The notes under the pieces: generated by a model
The model's database searches: none
The model's input: the letters and a program-made list of their open reading frames with translations, nothing else
Told to the model about the DNA's origin: nothing
Assembly: GCA_012519455.1 (NCBI GenBank)
Contig: JAAYQE010000020.1
Location: forward strand, 1 to 36,007
DNA: 36,007 nucleotides
Direction: 5' to 3'
Source of the DNA: Syntrophomonadaceae bacterium
GTDB lineage: Bacteria > Bacillota > Ch66 > Ch109
In this document: piece after piece, positions 1,753 through 10,942 of the stretch
Layout of the letters: each line of letters opens with the position of its first letter
Numbering within the stretch: position 1 is the first letter of the stretch
Position numbers and translations under genes: made by a program

Positions 1753-2859
1753 GTGGAAATTAAAATGCTCTTAAATTTATTATCGAAAGCGTTTGAATGG
1801 GGGGTTTCGGACGTACACTTGACCGTAGGTAGTGCTCCCGCTTTTCGTCTACATGGAGTCTTGCTTCCTCTCGATTCTCCATATTGGGTAGAAAGAATTC
1901 CGGTTGCTGGGGCGGGCCTGGGTAAATTGACTGCGGCAGATACGGAACGTCTGGCCCGACAAATCATGCTTGAGGAACGTTATCGTGAGTTTAGGGAGGC
2001 TGGTGAACTAGATTTTTCTTATACCGTGGAGGGCGTAGGGCGCTGTCGGGTTAATGCTTTTTTACAGCAAAGTAAGGTGAGCCTAGTACTACGCCTGATC
2101 CAGGCTCAGATTCCCACCTTCCAGCAGTTAGGTCTACCAGAAGTCATTAGTTCCCTGGTTCGGCGTTCCCAGGGCATGGTGTTGGTTACCGGACCGACGG
2201 GTTGTGGCAAGTCAACCACGCTGGCTGCAATGCTTGATTTGATCAACCGGGAGGCTTCTTATCATATTTTAACGTTAGAGGACCCGATTGAATTTATCCA
2301 TACTCACCAAAAAAGCATCATTAATCAAAGGGAGATTTATCGGGATTCCTCTTCTTTTGCCAATGCCCTTCGTGCTGCTTTACGGGAGGATCCGGATGTA
2401 ATCTTGGTCGGAGAAATGCGTGATCCGGAAACGATTGGCATTGCCCTCACGGCAGCGGAAACCGGACACCTAGTGTTAGGTTCCTTACATACCTCTAGCG
2501 CGGCCCAAACGATTGACCGGATTATTGATGTTTTTCCTCCATATCAACAAGCGCAGATTCGAGTACAGTTAGCCCAAAGCATCCAAGGTATCGTAGCCCA
2601 GCAACTAATTCCCCGTCTAGATAAATCCGGGAGAGTCTTGGCCCTGGAGATCATGATTGCTACCCCAGCTATCCGTAACCTGATTCGAGAAGGCCGGTCG
2701 TATCAAATCATTAACCAGATTCAGACCGGACTAAAATTCGGGATGATCCCGTTGGATATGAGCTTACGGAACTTGGTGCTGAATAAAATCATTACCCGGG
2801 AAGAAGCCCTTAATCGGGCCTCCGATTCGGAAACTCTATTGAAGATGCTTGGTGGATAA
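1753..2859 (+). CDS. pilT: Type IV pilus retraction ATPase PilT
   Basis: 368 aa; Walker A GPTGCGKSTT, Asp box TLEDPIEF, Walker B DPDVILVGEMRD, ETGHLVLGSLHT. Confidence 0.93.
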   Translation: MEIKMLLNLLSKAFEWGVSDVHLTVGSAPAFRLHGVLLPLDSPYWVERIPVAGAGLGKLTAADTERLARQIMLEERYREFREAGELDFSYTVEGVGRCRVNAFLQQSKVSLVLRLIQAQIPTFQQLGLPEVISSLVRRSQGMVLVTGPTGCGKSTTLAAMLDLINREASYHILTLEDPIEFIHTHQKSIINQREIYRDSSSFANALRAALREDPDVILVGEMRDPETIGIALTAAETGHLVLGSLHTSSAAQTIDRIIDVFPPYQQAQIRVQLAQSIQGIVAQQLIPRLDKSGRVLALEIMIATPAIRNLIREGRSYQIINQIQTGLKFGMIPLDMSLRNLVLNKIITREEALNRASDSETLLKMLGG

Positions 2860-2882
2860 AATCGTATGTAATTGGAGAAGAA

Positions 2883-3509
2883 GTGGTTATGGACCTATTG
2901 ATTTTGGGAGGAATAGCCGTTGCTGGGCTAATCCTTGGCAGCTTTTTAAATGTACTTATATATCGACGGCAGAACCTTATCATTGTCCTAAGCACATCAA
3001 TCTTACTAGTGTTAATGTGGCGATTTTATGGTTGTCAGGTTGAGTTTTTCTCGGTGGTATTTTTATTTTCTTTATTAATTACGGCTGCAGTTATTGATTA
3101 TGAACAGTATATAATTCCTAATAGTGTAATTTTAGTGGGCCTTATTGGCGCCGGAATCATCCAAGTTTTTTTATTTCAGGGCCATCAAATGGTAAATGCC
3201 GGGTTAGGCGCACTCAGTGCAGCCGGCTTTCTTTTTTTATTACGGGTGATTAGCCGTGGAGGGGTAGGAGCGGGCGATATAAAGCTAGCCCTGGTGATAG
3301 GGCTTTTTTTAGGATGGCCGGTAGGACTTTTTTCAATGTTTTTAGCTTGTCTTATTGCCGGGGTTATCGGAATAGGGCTGCTTTTAAGCGGGAAAAAAAC
3401 GCGTAAAGATATAATCCCTTTTGGTCCTTTTTTAGCCATCAGTGCCATGTTATCTTACTTTAAAGGGGAAGAATGGTTGAGTTGGTATCTGGCCTGGCTT
3501 GGAATTTAA
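2883..3509 (+). CDS. A24-family prepilin peptidase lacking the Cys-rich N-methylase segment
   Basis: 208 aa, multi-TM; GSFLNVLIYR signature, catalytic Asp motifs VIDYEQYIIPN and GAGDIK; no CxxC...CxxC region; GTG start. Confidence 0.85.
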   Translation: MVMDLLILGGIAVAGLILGSFLNVLIYRRQNLIIVLSTSILLVLMWRFYGCQVEFFSVVFLFSLLITAAVIDYEQYIIPNSVILVGLIGAGIIQVFLFQGHQMVNAGLGALSAAGFLFLLRVISRGGVGAGDIKLALVIGLFLGWPVGLFSMFLACLIAGVIGIGLLLSGKKTRKDIIPFGPFLAISAMLSYFKGEEWLSWYLAWLGI

Positions 3510-7238: not shown

Positions 7239-7292
7239 AAGGTATAGCGAATACTACAAAGTGGTAAATTGTTAGCAGGAGGTCGTTCTGTT

Positions 7293-7979
7293 TTGAAGCA
7301 GGTTTATGCGGGAAAAACGAAAGATGTTTTTGCTCTAGAAGATGGAAATTATTTGTTGCAATTTAAAGACGAGGTAACTGGGGAAGATGGTCGTATTGAT
7401 CCCGGTTCCAATGCCGTTCTGGGCAAGCTGGAAGGGAAAGGAAAAGCTTCGTTACGTATGTCTCAGTATTTTTTTGAACTCCTGCAGAAGAAAGGGATCC
7501 CTACCCATTATGTTGCTGCGGACCCGAAGGAAGGAACTATGGTCGTTCGGCCGGCTCAAACTTTTGGGGACGGGCTAGAAGTAGTGATCCGTTTTCGCGC
7601 TTTTGGTAGTTTTCTTCGTCGTTACGGCCGTTATGCCCAAGAACTCCAACCGCTGGATGCCTTAGTCGAGATAACCCTAAAGGATGATGAACGGGGTGAT
7701 CCTCCTTTAAATGAGGAGACCTTGATTCAGTTAAATCTAATGACAGGCGAGGAAGTAACCCGGGTAAAAACAATGGCTCGGCAGGTAGCCTGCGTTGTTC
7801 GGGATGATCTGGCGGCCCGGGGATTGGACCTGGTAGATATAAAATTTGAGTTCGGTCGGATAAACGGTGACGTGGTAGTAATTGACGACATTTCCGGCGA
7901 TAATATGCGGGTATTTCGTAATAAGCAGCCCTTATTACCGCTAGAACTATCCGCGATTGTAACCGGCGAGCCGGTTTAA
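7293..7979 (+). CDS. purC: Phosphoribosylaminoimidazole-succinocarboxamide synthase
   Basis: KQVYAGKTKDVF...DEVTGEDGRIDPG...VVRPAQTFGDGLEVVIRFRAFGSF; TTG at 7293 follows AGGAGG better than the ORF-track start at 7269. Confidence 0.9.
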   Translation: MKQVYAGKTKDVFALEDGNYLLQFKDEVTGEDGRIDPGSNAVLGKLEGKGKASLRMSQYFFELLQKKGIPTHYVAADPKEGTMVVRPAQTFGDGLEVVIRFRAFGSFLRRYGRYAQELQPLDALVEITLKDDERGDPPLNEETLIQLNLMTGEEVTRVKTMARQVACVVRDDLAARGLDLVDIKFEFGRINGDVVVIDDISGDNMRVFRNKQPLLPLELSAIVTGEPV

Positions 7980-9055: not shown

Positions 9056-9083
9056 TTGACTTTTTTTATAGATCCGTTATACT
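9056..9083 (+). promoter_or_regulatory. SigmaA-like promoter for the paaK T-box leader
   Basis: TTGACT (9056-9061), 16-bp spacer, TATACT (9078-9083). Confidence 0.65.
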
Positions 9084-9110
9084 TAGACTATCTTCAAATA
9101 TTAGGTAAAT

Positions 9111-9430
9111 GTGATGCGGGAGAAGAGTAGGCCAGGATAACCCTTTCAGGGAGAGAACGCCAAAGACTGGGAGCGTTCTTAGGGGGAAATGGTTGAAGTT
9201 CGCTCCCAAACCGTCGGCTGAAACTGCGGTTAGACCCGGAGTAAGTAGGTTAGACCGGAGACTTCCACCGTTAAAAGGAAGCGGGTATCGGATTTAGTCC
9301 CGTACTCAGACGAGCGGCCATGAACGAAAACCGCACTTTAGAGAAGGTGTCGGTTGCGGGAATTGGCAAGCAGGGTGGTACCACGAAAGCAAAGCTTTTC
9401 GTCCCTGAGGGCGAAAAGCTTTTTTTATTG
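9111..9430 (+). promoter_or_regulatory. T-box riboswitch (full leader: Stem I, Stem II, IIA/B pseudoknot, Stem III, antiterminator/terminator)
   Basis: Stem I base GGGAG/CTCCC with AGTA loop-E side and GAA strand; CTTCC-ACCG-TTAAAA-GGAAG-CGGGT pseudoknot pattern (9262-9286); T-box core CAGGGTGGTACCACG (9371-9385). Confidence 0.93.
9391..9427 (+). terminator. T-box terminator 1
   Basis: AAAGCTTTTCG-TCCCTGAGGG-CGAAAAGCTTT followed by a T-run. Confidence 0.9.
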
Positions 9431-9490
9431 GGCGTTTCGCTCCGTGCTACCGGTGTCCTGGGTGGAGGAAGACGGGTCCTGTATCTGAAG

Positions 9491-9570
9491 AAGTTGGGTC
9501 GGCTGAAAAAGGCCAACAAGGGTGGTACCGCGGTGTTAAATCGTCCCTTAACAGGGGCGTTTTTTATTTT
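9491..9570 (+). promoter_or_regulatory. Second T-box antiterminator/terminator module (partial duplication)
   Basis: Stem III-like GTTGG...CCAAC, then AAGGGTGGTACCGCGG (9519-9534), then terminator CGTCCC-TTAACA-GGGGCG + TTTTTT (9542-9566); no second Stem I or specifier loop seen. Confidence 0.85.
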
Positions 9571-9637
9571 TAGTACTAGAAAGGCATTAGTCAAATTAAA
9601 GCCGGTCAGAGAGTATAAATTATTAGGAGGGATTTTT

Positions 9638-10942
9638 ATGTATTGGGAAGAAGCAGTGGAGTGTATGGACCGTAAAGAATTGAAACGGAGGCAGTGGGAA
9701 AAGCTACAAATCAGTTTAGCGCGAGCCTATCAAAAAGTTCCTTTCTATCGACAGCAATTTGAGACACGGGGTCTTAGTCCAGCTGATATACGGGGACTGG
9801 AAGATTTACAACGTCTTCCCTTTACCGAAAAAGGGGTACTACGGGATCATTATCCTTTTGGGATGTTTGCCGTTCCTCAGGAGGAGGTGGTCCGGGTACA
9901 TGCCTCTTCCGGCACAACCGGTAAACCCACGGTGGTAGGGTATACGCGAGGGGATCTGGAGGTTTGGGCGGACTTAATGGCGCGAGCTTTAACGATGGCC
10001 GGAGCTACAACCAGTTCGGTAGTACAGGTAGCCTATGGATATGGGCTTTTTACCGGTGGTTTGGGAGTGCATTATGGAGTAGAGCGATTAGGGGCGATCG
10101 CGGTCCCAGCTTCTGGGGGAAACACACCTCGACAAATCATGTTAATGGAAGACTTTGGCACCAATATTTTGGCCTGTACTCCTTCTTATGCGCTCTATCT
10201 GGCCGAAGTGATTGAGGAAATGGGAATTGAGCGTAGTCGTCTAGCGCTGGAAGCGGGAGTGTTTGGCGCTGAACCCTGGACTAATCAAATGCGTCAGTCT
10301 TTGGAATCTCGGTTACAGATTAAAGCCTTAGATATCTATGGTTTAAGTGAGATTATGGGCCCAGGGGTGGCGATGGAATGCCCCCATCAAACCGGATTGC
10401 ATTTTTTTGAAGATCATTTTTTACCGGAAATTATTGATCCGGATACAGGAGAAACACTTCCCTACGGAGAAAAGGGTGAATTGGTAATCACTACCCTTAC
10501 CAAAGAAGCGTTACCCATGCTTCGTTACCGTACACGCGATATCGCTGTATTACATCCCGAACCCTGTTCCTGCGGCCGTACCCTCGTACGCTTGGAGAAG
10601 ATTTTGGGACGTACCGATGACATGGTAATTATTCGGGGCGTTAATGTATTCCCCTCGCAGGTGGAAACGGTGTTGCTGCGTGCCCAGGAGGTAGCTCCTT
10701 TTTATGAACTGATCATTGATCGCAAAGGTAGCTTGGATATTTTGGAAGTGCGGGTAGAAGTCACGGAGTGTACCTTACAAACGGCGGAAATCAAAGAATT
10801 AGAAAGGATCCGTTCGCGGATAAAGCGTGACTTGGATAGCACACTAGGCATTGCGGTGGAAGTAAGACTAGTTGAACCACGTACGATCGGGCGCACCGAA
10901 GGAAAGGCTAAGCGGGTGATTGATCGTCGCACAGAAAGATAA
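9638..10942 (+). CDS. paaK: Phenylacetate-CoA ligase
   Basis: 434 aa from ATG 9638 (AGGAGG SD); HASSGTTGKPTVVGYT AMP-binding motif, DIYGLSEIMGPGVAMEC, LGRTDDMVIIRGVNVFPSQVE. Confidence 0.93.
   Translation: MYWEEAVECMDRKELKRRQWEKLQISLARAYQKVPFYRQQFETRGLSPADIRGLEDLQRLPFTEKGVLRDHYPFGMFAVPQEEVVRVHASSGTTGKPTVVGYTRGDLEVWADLMARALTMAGATTSSVVQVAYGYGLFTGGLGVHYGVERLGAIAVPASGGNTPRQIMLMEDFGTNILACTPSYALYLAEVIEEMGIERSRLALEAGVFGAEPWTNQMRQSLESRLQIKALDIYGLSEIMGPGVAMECPHQTGLHFFEDHFLPEIIDPDTGETLPYGEKGELVITTLTKEALPMLRYRTRDIAVLHPEPCSCGRTLVRLEKILGRTDDMVIIRGVNVFPSQVETVLLRAQEVAPFYELIIDRKGSLDILEVRVEVTECTLQTAEIKELERIRSRIKRDLDSTLGIAVEVRLVEPRTIGRTEGKAKRVIDRRTER

Follow-up and report, generated by a model that had tools for sequence, protein, structure and literature searches.

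A partially tandem phenylalanine T-box upstream of paaK and a candidate helix between its two units

How could a second discriminator and terminator act in a T-box leader that has a single Stem I? This question is raised by the leader of paaK (phenylacetate-CoA ligase, 9638–10942; TIGR02155 with 585 bits and E 6.8e-176, below the cut-off of 646, and Pfam AMP-binding domains) in a Syntrophomonadaceae bacterium. Coordinates refer to the window, the whole stretch of 36,007 nucleotides that was analysed (contig JAAYQE010000020.1), and the gene and all leader elements lie on its plus strand. The first-pass annotation had proposed a complete T-box followed by a Stem III/antiterminator/terminator module without a Stem I of its own. 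The covariance search with the Rfam model RF00230 that it had named as a check bears this out, giving one full match (9105–9409) and one partial match (9515–9548), with no match to a Stem I, an AGUA motif or a specifier between the two cores.

Architecture of the paaK leader

A sigma-70-like promoter (TTGACT-16-TATACT, 9056–9083, 10 of 12 positions in a consensus scan) precedes the first unit, whose full match runs through model positions 1–219, from Stem I over Stem II and the pseudoknot to the T-box core. Its score of 84.3 bits (E 8.7e-19) falls short of the curated gathering score, which is 93. From the RF00230 alignment and the sequence, Stem I spans approximately 9105–9211 with AGUA at 9126–9129 and GAA at 9195–9197, and the specifier UUC for phenylalanine follows at 9199–9201 in a GAA-G-UUC context. 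Stem II and the IIA/B pseudoknot occupy approximately 9212–9282 and contain the F-box CCGTTA and the pseudoknot strands CTTCC/GGAAG. Next comes a conserved motif that we call P5 (GGGTATCGGATTT, 9283–9295), a potential shared docking strand that can pair either with its local partner P3-1 (GTCCCGTACTC, 9297–9307; hairpin of −9.5 kcal/mol) or with a strand P3-2 (GGGTCCTGTATCT, 9474–9486; 12 bp, −10.6 kcal/mol) of the second unit. Stem III of unit 1 (9317–9367) is flanked by GAGCG (9312–9316) and AA (9368–9369), in agreement with the RRRxG-Stem III-AA motif described in PMC7583486. Antiterminator 1 (9372–9406, from RF00230 and the fold; core AGGGTGGTACCACG, 9372–9385) overlaps terminator 1, which together with its U tract spans 9391–9427 (hairpin 9391–9422, 14 pairs, −19.1 kcal/mol). 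The tRNA-Phe of the same genome has the anticodon GAA and the 3' end ACCA, which fits UGGU in both cores. Judged by its sequence, unit 1 is a transcriptional, phenylalanine-specific T-box riboswitch.

Unit 2 begins behind P3-2 with a Stem III (GGTC/GGCC, 9497–9514), which can be extended to GTTGG/CCAAC (9493–9517) and is followed by AA at 9515–9516; its RRRxG flank is imperfect (AGUUG). Antiterminator 2 (9519–9548) is supported by the fold and by the partial match, which is confined to the antiterminator region of the model (positions 183–216, 28.3 bits, E 2.3e-4). Its core AGGGTGGTACCGCGG at 9519–9533 lies 133 nt from the first one, and terminator 2 with its U tract follows at 9542–9566 (hairpin 9542–9559, 7 pairs, −9.6 kcal/mol). 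The proposed positions of cores and terminators, each core with its own terminator, all agree with ours except that the second core is shifted by one base. Stem II is also missing from unit 2. The duplicated part comprises the discriminator (Stem III and antiterminator), described as both required and enough for the sensing of aminoacylation (PMC7583486), plus its terminator, and a single specifier, here UUC, stands before two such units in series, as had been claimed. Folded alone, neither unit adopts a T-box fold at minimum energy and the signal is weak (z −2.24 and 0.26), which is what a switch that depends on tRNA should show. Neither match of this leader passes the default Rfam threshold. 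The gathering score is exceeded by 7 of the 13 T-boxes of this genome (L001–L013), so that the other six, the paaK leader among them, would be missed by default annotation.

The arrangement differs from the usual RF00230 T-box, all elements of which are present in unit 1, by the extra discriminator and terminator without Stem I and by the alternative P5/P3-2 helix between the units. Fully tandem T-boxes consist of two complete units in series, for which a cooperative, sharper response has been proposed (PMC9413887, PMC12452182); they share with the paaK leader the two successive termination decisions, but in them both units possess a separate sensor domain and bind a separate tRNA, whereas no second Stem I and specifier are present here. 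As far as can be judged from a brief mention in PMC7583486, the paaK leader apparently has the same kind of arrangement as the "partially tandem T-boxes" named there, whose "modes of action remain unknown".

Half-duplicated leaders and the genes behind them

The comparison of related paaK leaders, also suggested by the first-pass annotation, revealed the same arrangement in a sister genus (L015, PaaK 79% identical), where a full T-box (2815–3114) and a partial match (3317–3365, 39.5 bits) precede paaK and the RRRxG flank of unit 2 is again imperfect (AGCCG). Two other paaK leaders from relatives (L118, L119) and L016 contain one complete T-box only. A second half-duplicated Phe T-box was found in the genome of the window itself, upstream of a DAHP synthase gene (L007, 1501–1990 of G000:C57), and the linker immediately downstream of its first terminator forms 11 bp with P5. 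The recurrence in L015 and L007 indicates that the arrangement is more than chance. A scan of 399 genomes of the phylum found double cores in 6 genomes with a strict core and a gap of 115–145, and in 54 genomes with a relaxed core and a gap of 84–114; the reversed control gave one, so that a few of the 54 are chance matches. Half-duplicated T-boxes are therefore not rare in this phylum, and the earlier opinion that they are much less common than complete tandems finds no support here. Curation, in which L161 was dropped as a chance core pair, led to 69 loci, 51 of them with a Phe specifier.

Base 4 of the UGGN box is identical between both units in 68 of the 69 loci, among them Trp and Ser leaders with C/C, as would be expected if both units meet the same tRNA and also by descent. 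In the partial tandems L165–L169 and L191 both boxes carry a C, serC follows wherever a gene is visible, and no P5/P3-2 helix was seen. L156–L158 are partial tandems for Tyr, their specifier being read as UAC, with UUGAGAGGAU in unit 1 being complementary to AUUCUCUCAA in unit 2.

The genes downstream of the curated loci, judged mostly from their translations, include DAHP synthase, paaK, sodium:solute symporters, ABC substrate-binding proteins, serC and trpD. In three further genomes (L180, L181 and L182) a Phe partial-tandem T-box precedes paaK followed by an ACT-domain gene. The recurrence of a Phe-starvation switch on paaK-ACT operons, also in other families, fits a salvage of phenylalanine from phenylacetate better than catabolism; it makes the initial label of a catabolic-type ligase doubtful and hints that the enzyme supplies phenylalanine from phenylacetate instead of breaking it down. 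An indolepyruvate oxidoreductase (TIGR03336) reached the cut-off in 7 of 11 genomes and stayed below it in the window's own genome, a fragmented assembly. Literature searches that combined T-boxes with phenylacetate or with phenylacetate-CoA ligase yielded no relevant result, and one for aryl-acid reductive carboxylation found nothing. Two observations from the same genome concern a 2-oxoacid:ferredoxin oxidoreductase-like gene that is preceded by a T-box (L010, G000:C210) and, in the window at 7269–7979, a short purC-like protein of 236 aa (113.7 bits, below the TIGR00081 cut-off of 189.9).

Comparative evidence for a helix between the units

A hairpin between pseudoknot and Stem III of unit 1 consists of P5 (GGGUAUCGGA) paired with P3-1 (UCCCGUACC). 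The P3 motif is kept in unit 2 of 38 of the 51 Phe leaders, while a GGTATC-type P5 upstream of P3-2 is absent. Reading the linkers leader by leader, we found that P5 and the hairpin loop of unit 1 are matched, in a manner specific to each leader, by complementary sequence in P3-2 and in the extension on its 5' side, a possible mechanistic link that the first-pass annotation had missed. As the 38 leaders were selected by the P3-2 motif, pairing of the core motif is partly given by construction. With the motif excluded, pairing of loop and extension amounts to −3.98 kcal/mol against −1.62 kcal/mol after permutation between families (p ≤ 0.0005 in 30 of 30 one-per-family resamples), and the control combinations loop:upstream and post:extension were not significant. 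A raw duplex test between the linkers was given up in favour of this permutation, as the U tract confounds it and no more than 33 of 60 leaders reached significance. The extension does not copy unit 1: its similarity to that unit gives p 0.44 and does not explain the leader-specific pairing.

The P5/P3-2 duplex has a mean of 13.8 bp and −15.2 kcal/mol, compared to −10.1 kcal/mol for the hairpin of P5 with P3-1 and −2.1 kcal/mol when P3-2 pairs locally, and it exceeds the hairpin in 36 of 38 leaders and the local pairing in all 38, by energies that ignore loop closure, the tRNA and co-transcriptional kinetics. A pattern served to locate the P5 and P3 strands, and in the 14 leaders without the motif P5 was picked by hand; such leaders, as an independent set, gave −14.17 against −9.75 (p 0.0003). 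The columns also co-vary: for example, position −3 changes from G-C to A-U, and position +4 is paired in 30 of 38 leaders against 37% across families. In a separate pair count 88.4% of the cells are paired (80.5% when shuffled, at most 51% when slid), two-sided changes number 49 against 26.3, and the covariation score is 0.304 against 0.171 (reached in 0 of 500 shuffles), where the families contain related sequences and one-per-family resampling and slid controls lessen the effect of kinship without abolishing it. A central mismatch (C-C or C-U) is preserved in 38 of 38 leaders. At the level of the group the putative inter-unit helix is thus well supported comparatively, by complementarity as well as by covariation; the P5/P3-2 helix is absent from some partial tandems, namely the Ser leaders and L106, which has hardly any linker.

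For the paaK leader itself the duplex would be only slightly favoured, by about 1 kcal/mol over the hairpin, which taken alone is not decisive. P3-2 has a weak local partner in unit 2, where a small local fold is possible, and the wider duplex between the linkers is not significant in this single leader (p 0.165). With these modest values, the case for the helix rests on the group.

Possible mode of action

We favour, with a probability of roughly 55%, a model in which the paaK leader is a partially tandem Phe T-box with one platform, formed by Stem I/II and tRNA-Phe, that is used in succession by two discriminator/terminator units exchanged via P3-2. The P5/P3-1 helix would first attach unit 1, and the first decision would be taken at terminator 1. 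Once the polymerase has passed it, P3-2 would be transcribed, invade the loop of the P5/P3-1 hairpin, displace P3-1 and pair with P5, a toehold strand exchange suggested by the order of transcription (P5, P3-1, decision of unit 1, P3-2) and by the stronger second duplex. The second discriminator would thereby take the place of the first one, and the tRNA held by Stem I, either the same or a newly bound one, would be tested again at terminator 2. Read-through would require two consecutive uncharged results, which might lower the leak and steepen the response; the earlier suggestion of a sharper response or lower leak is thus plausible. That the exchange takes place during transcription, that it carries the 3' end of the tRNA over to unit 2 and that it affects regulation in this way are all inferred from the sequences, and the complex between tRNA and antiterminator 1 may be so stable that it does not come apart. 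Whether such leaders represent a widespread T-box class, with one decoding platform and two discriminators that check the charging of one tRNA twice by toehold exchange on a shared docking strand, we regard as an even bet.

The two decisions might also be independent, with discriminator 2 capturing the tRNA 3' end alone or by long-range reach and P3-2 being a mere spacer. The discriminator parts of unit 2, the sufficiency ascribed to a discriminator for sensing aminoacylation and the absence of the helix from Ser and some other partial tandems speak for this idea; on the other hand, the leader-specific, covarying complementarity of unit 2 to P5 and its loop would then need another reason, and binding of tRNA without a Stem I would probably be weak and unspecific, so that we consider it rather unlikely. 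The helix could instead dismantle unit 1, either releasing or resetting the tRNA or stabilising the read-through RNA, without positioning discriminator 2. In several leaders such as L142 complementarity does continue beyond P3-1 and reaches the sequence that flanks Stem III in unit 1 (the pairing of the segment after P3-1 with the upstream segment gives a modest leader-specific signal, p about 0.012), and the Tyr leaders, which are one family, pair their other segment as described above; nevertheless, P3-2 stands directly before Stem III of unit 2 in most leaders, just as P3-1 does in unit 1, which suggests positioning and makes dismantling quite improbable. Unit 2 might also be what is left of a complete tandem T-box that has decayed, functionless or a fixed partial terminator. 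The absent Stem I and the imperfect RRRxG flanks in the window and L015 would agree with this idea, but it is very improbable as core, antiterminator, terminator and P3-2 are preserved across families and an active terminator without antitermination would presumably silence the gene.

The exchange of P3-1 for P3-2 that we prefer would resemble the strand-exchange riboswitches reviewed in PMC10907184, as switching would occur by one strand displacing another; those swap an aptamer strand for a terminator strand, whereas the paaK leader would swap sensing domains on a shared ligand platform. Compared with what is briefly said of partially tandem T-boxes in PMC7583486, the covarying helix between the units and a mechanism are proposed here for leaders of the paaK type. 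Our literature search found no description of such a helix, which is probably new; the search left out the likeliest prior source, the T-box survey of Vitreschak et al. from 2008, in which partially tandem leaders may be described.

In summary, the covarying helix turns the mode of action of partially tandem T-boxes into a question that a small number of point mutants can address. Should the swap prove real, one ligand would be checked twice in sequence by two sensor domains on a common platform, and this would be a kind of proofreading in RNA.
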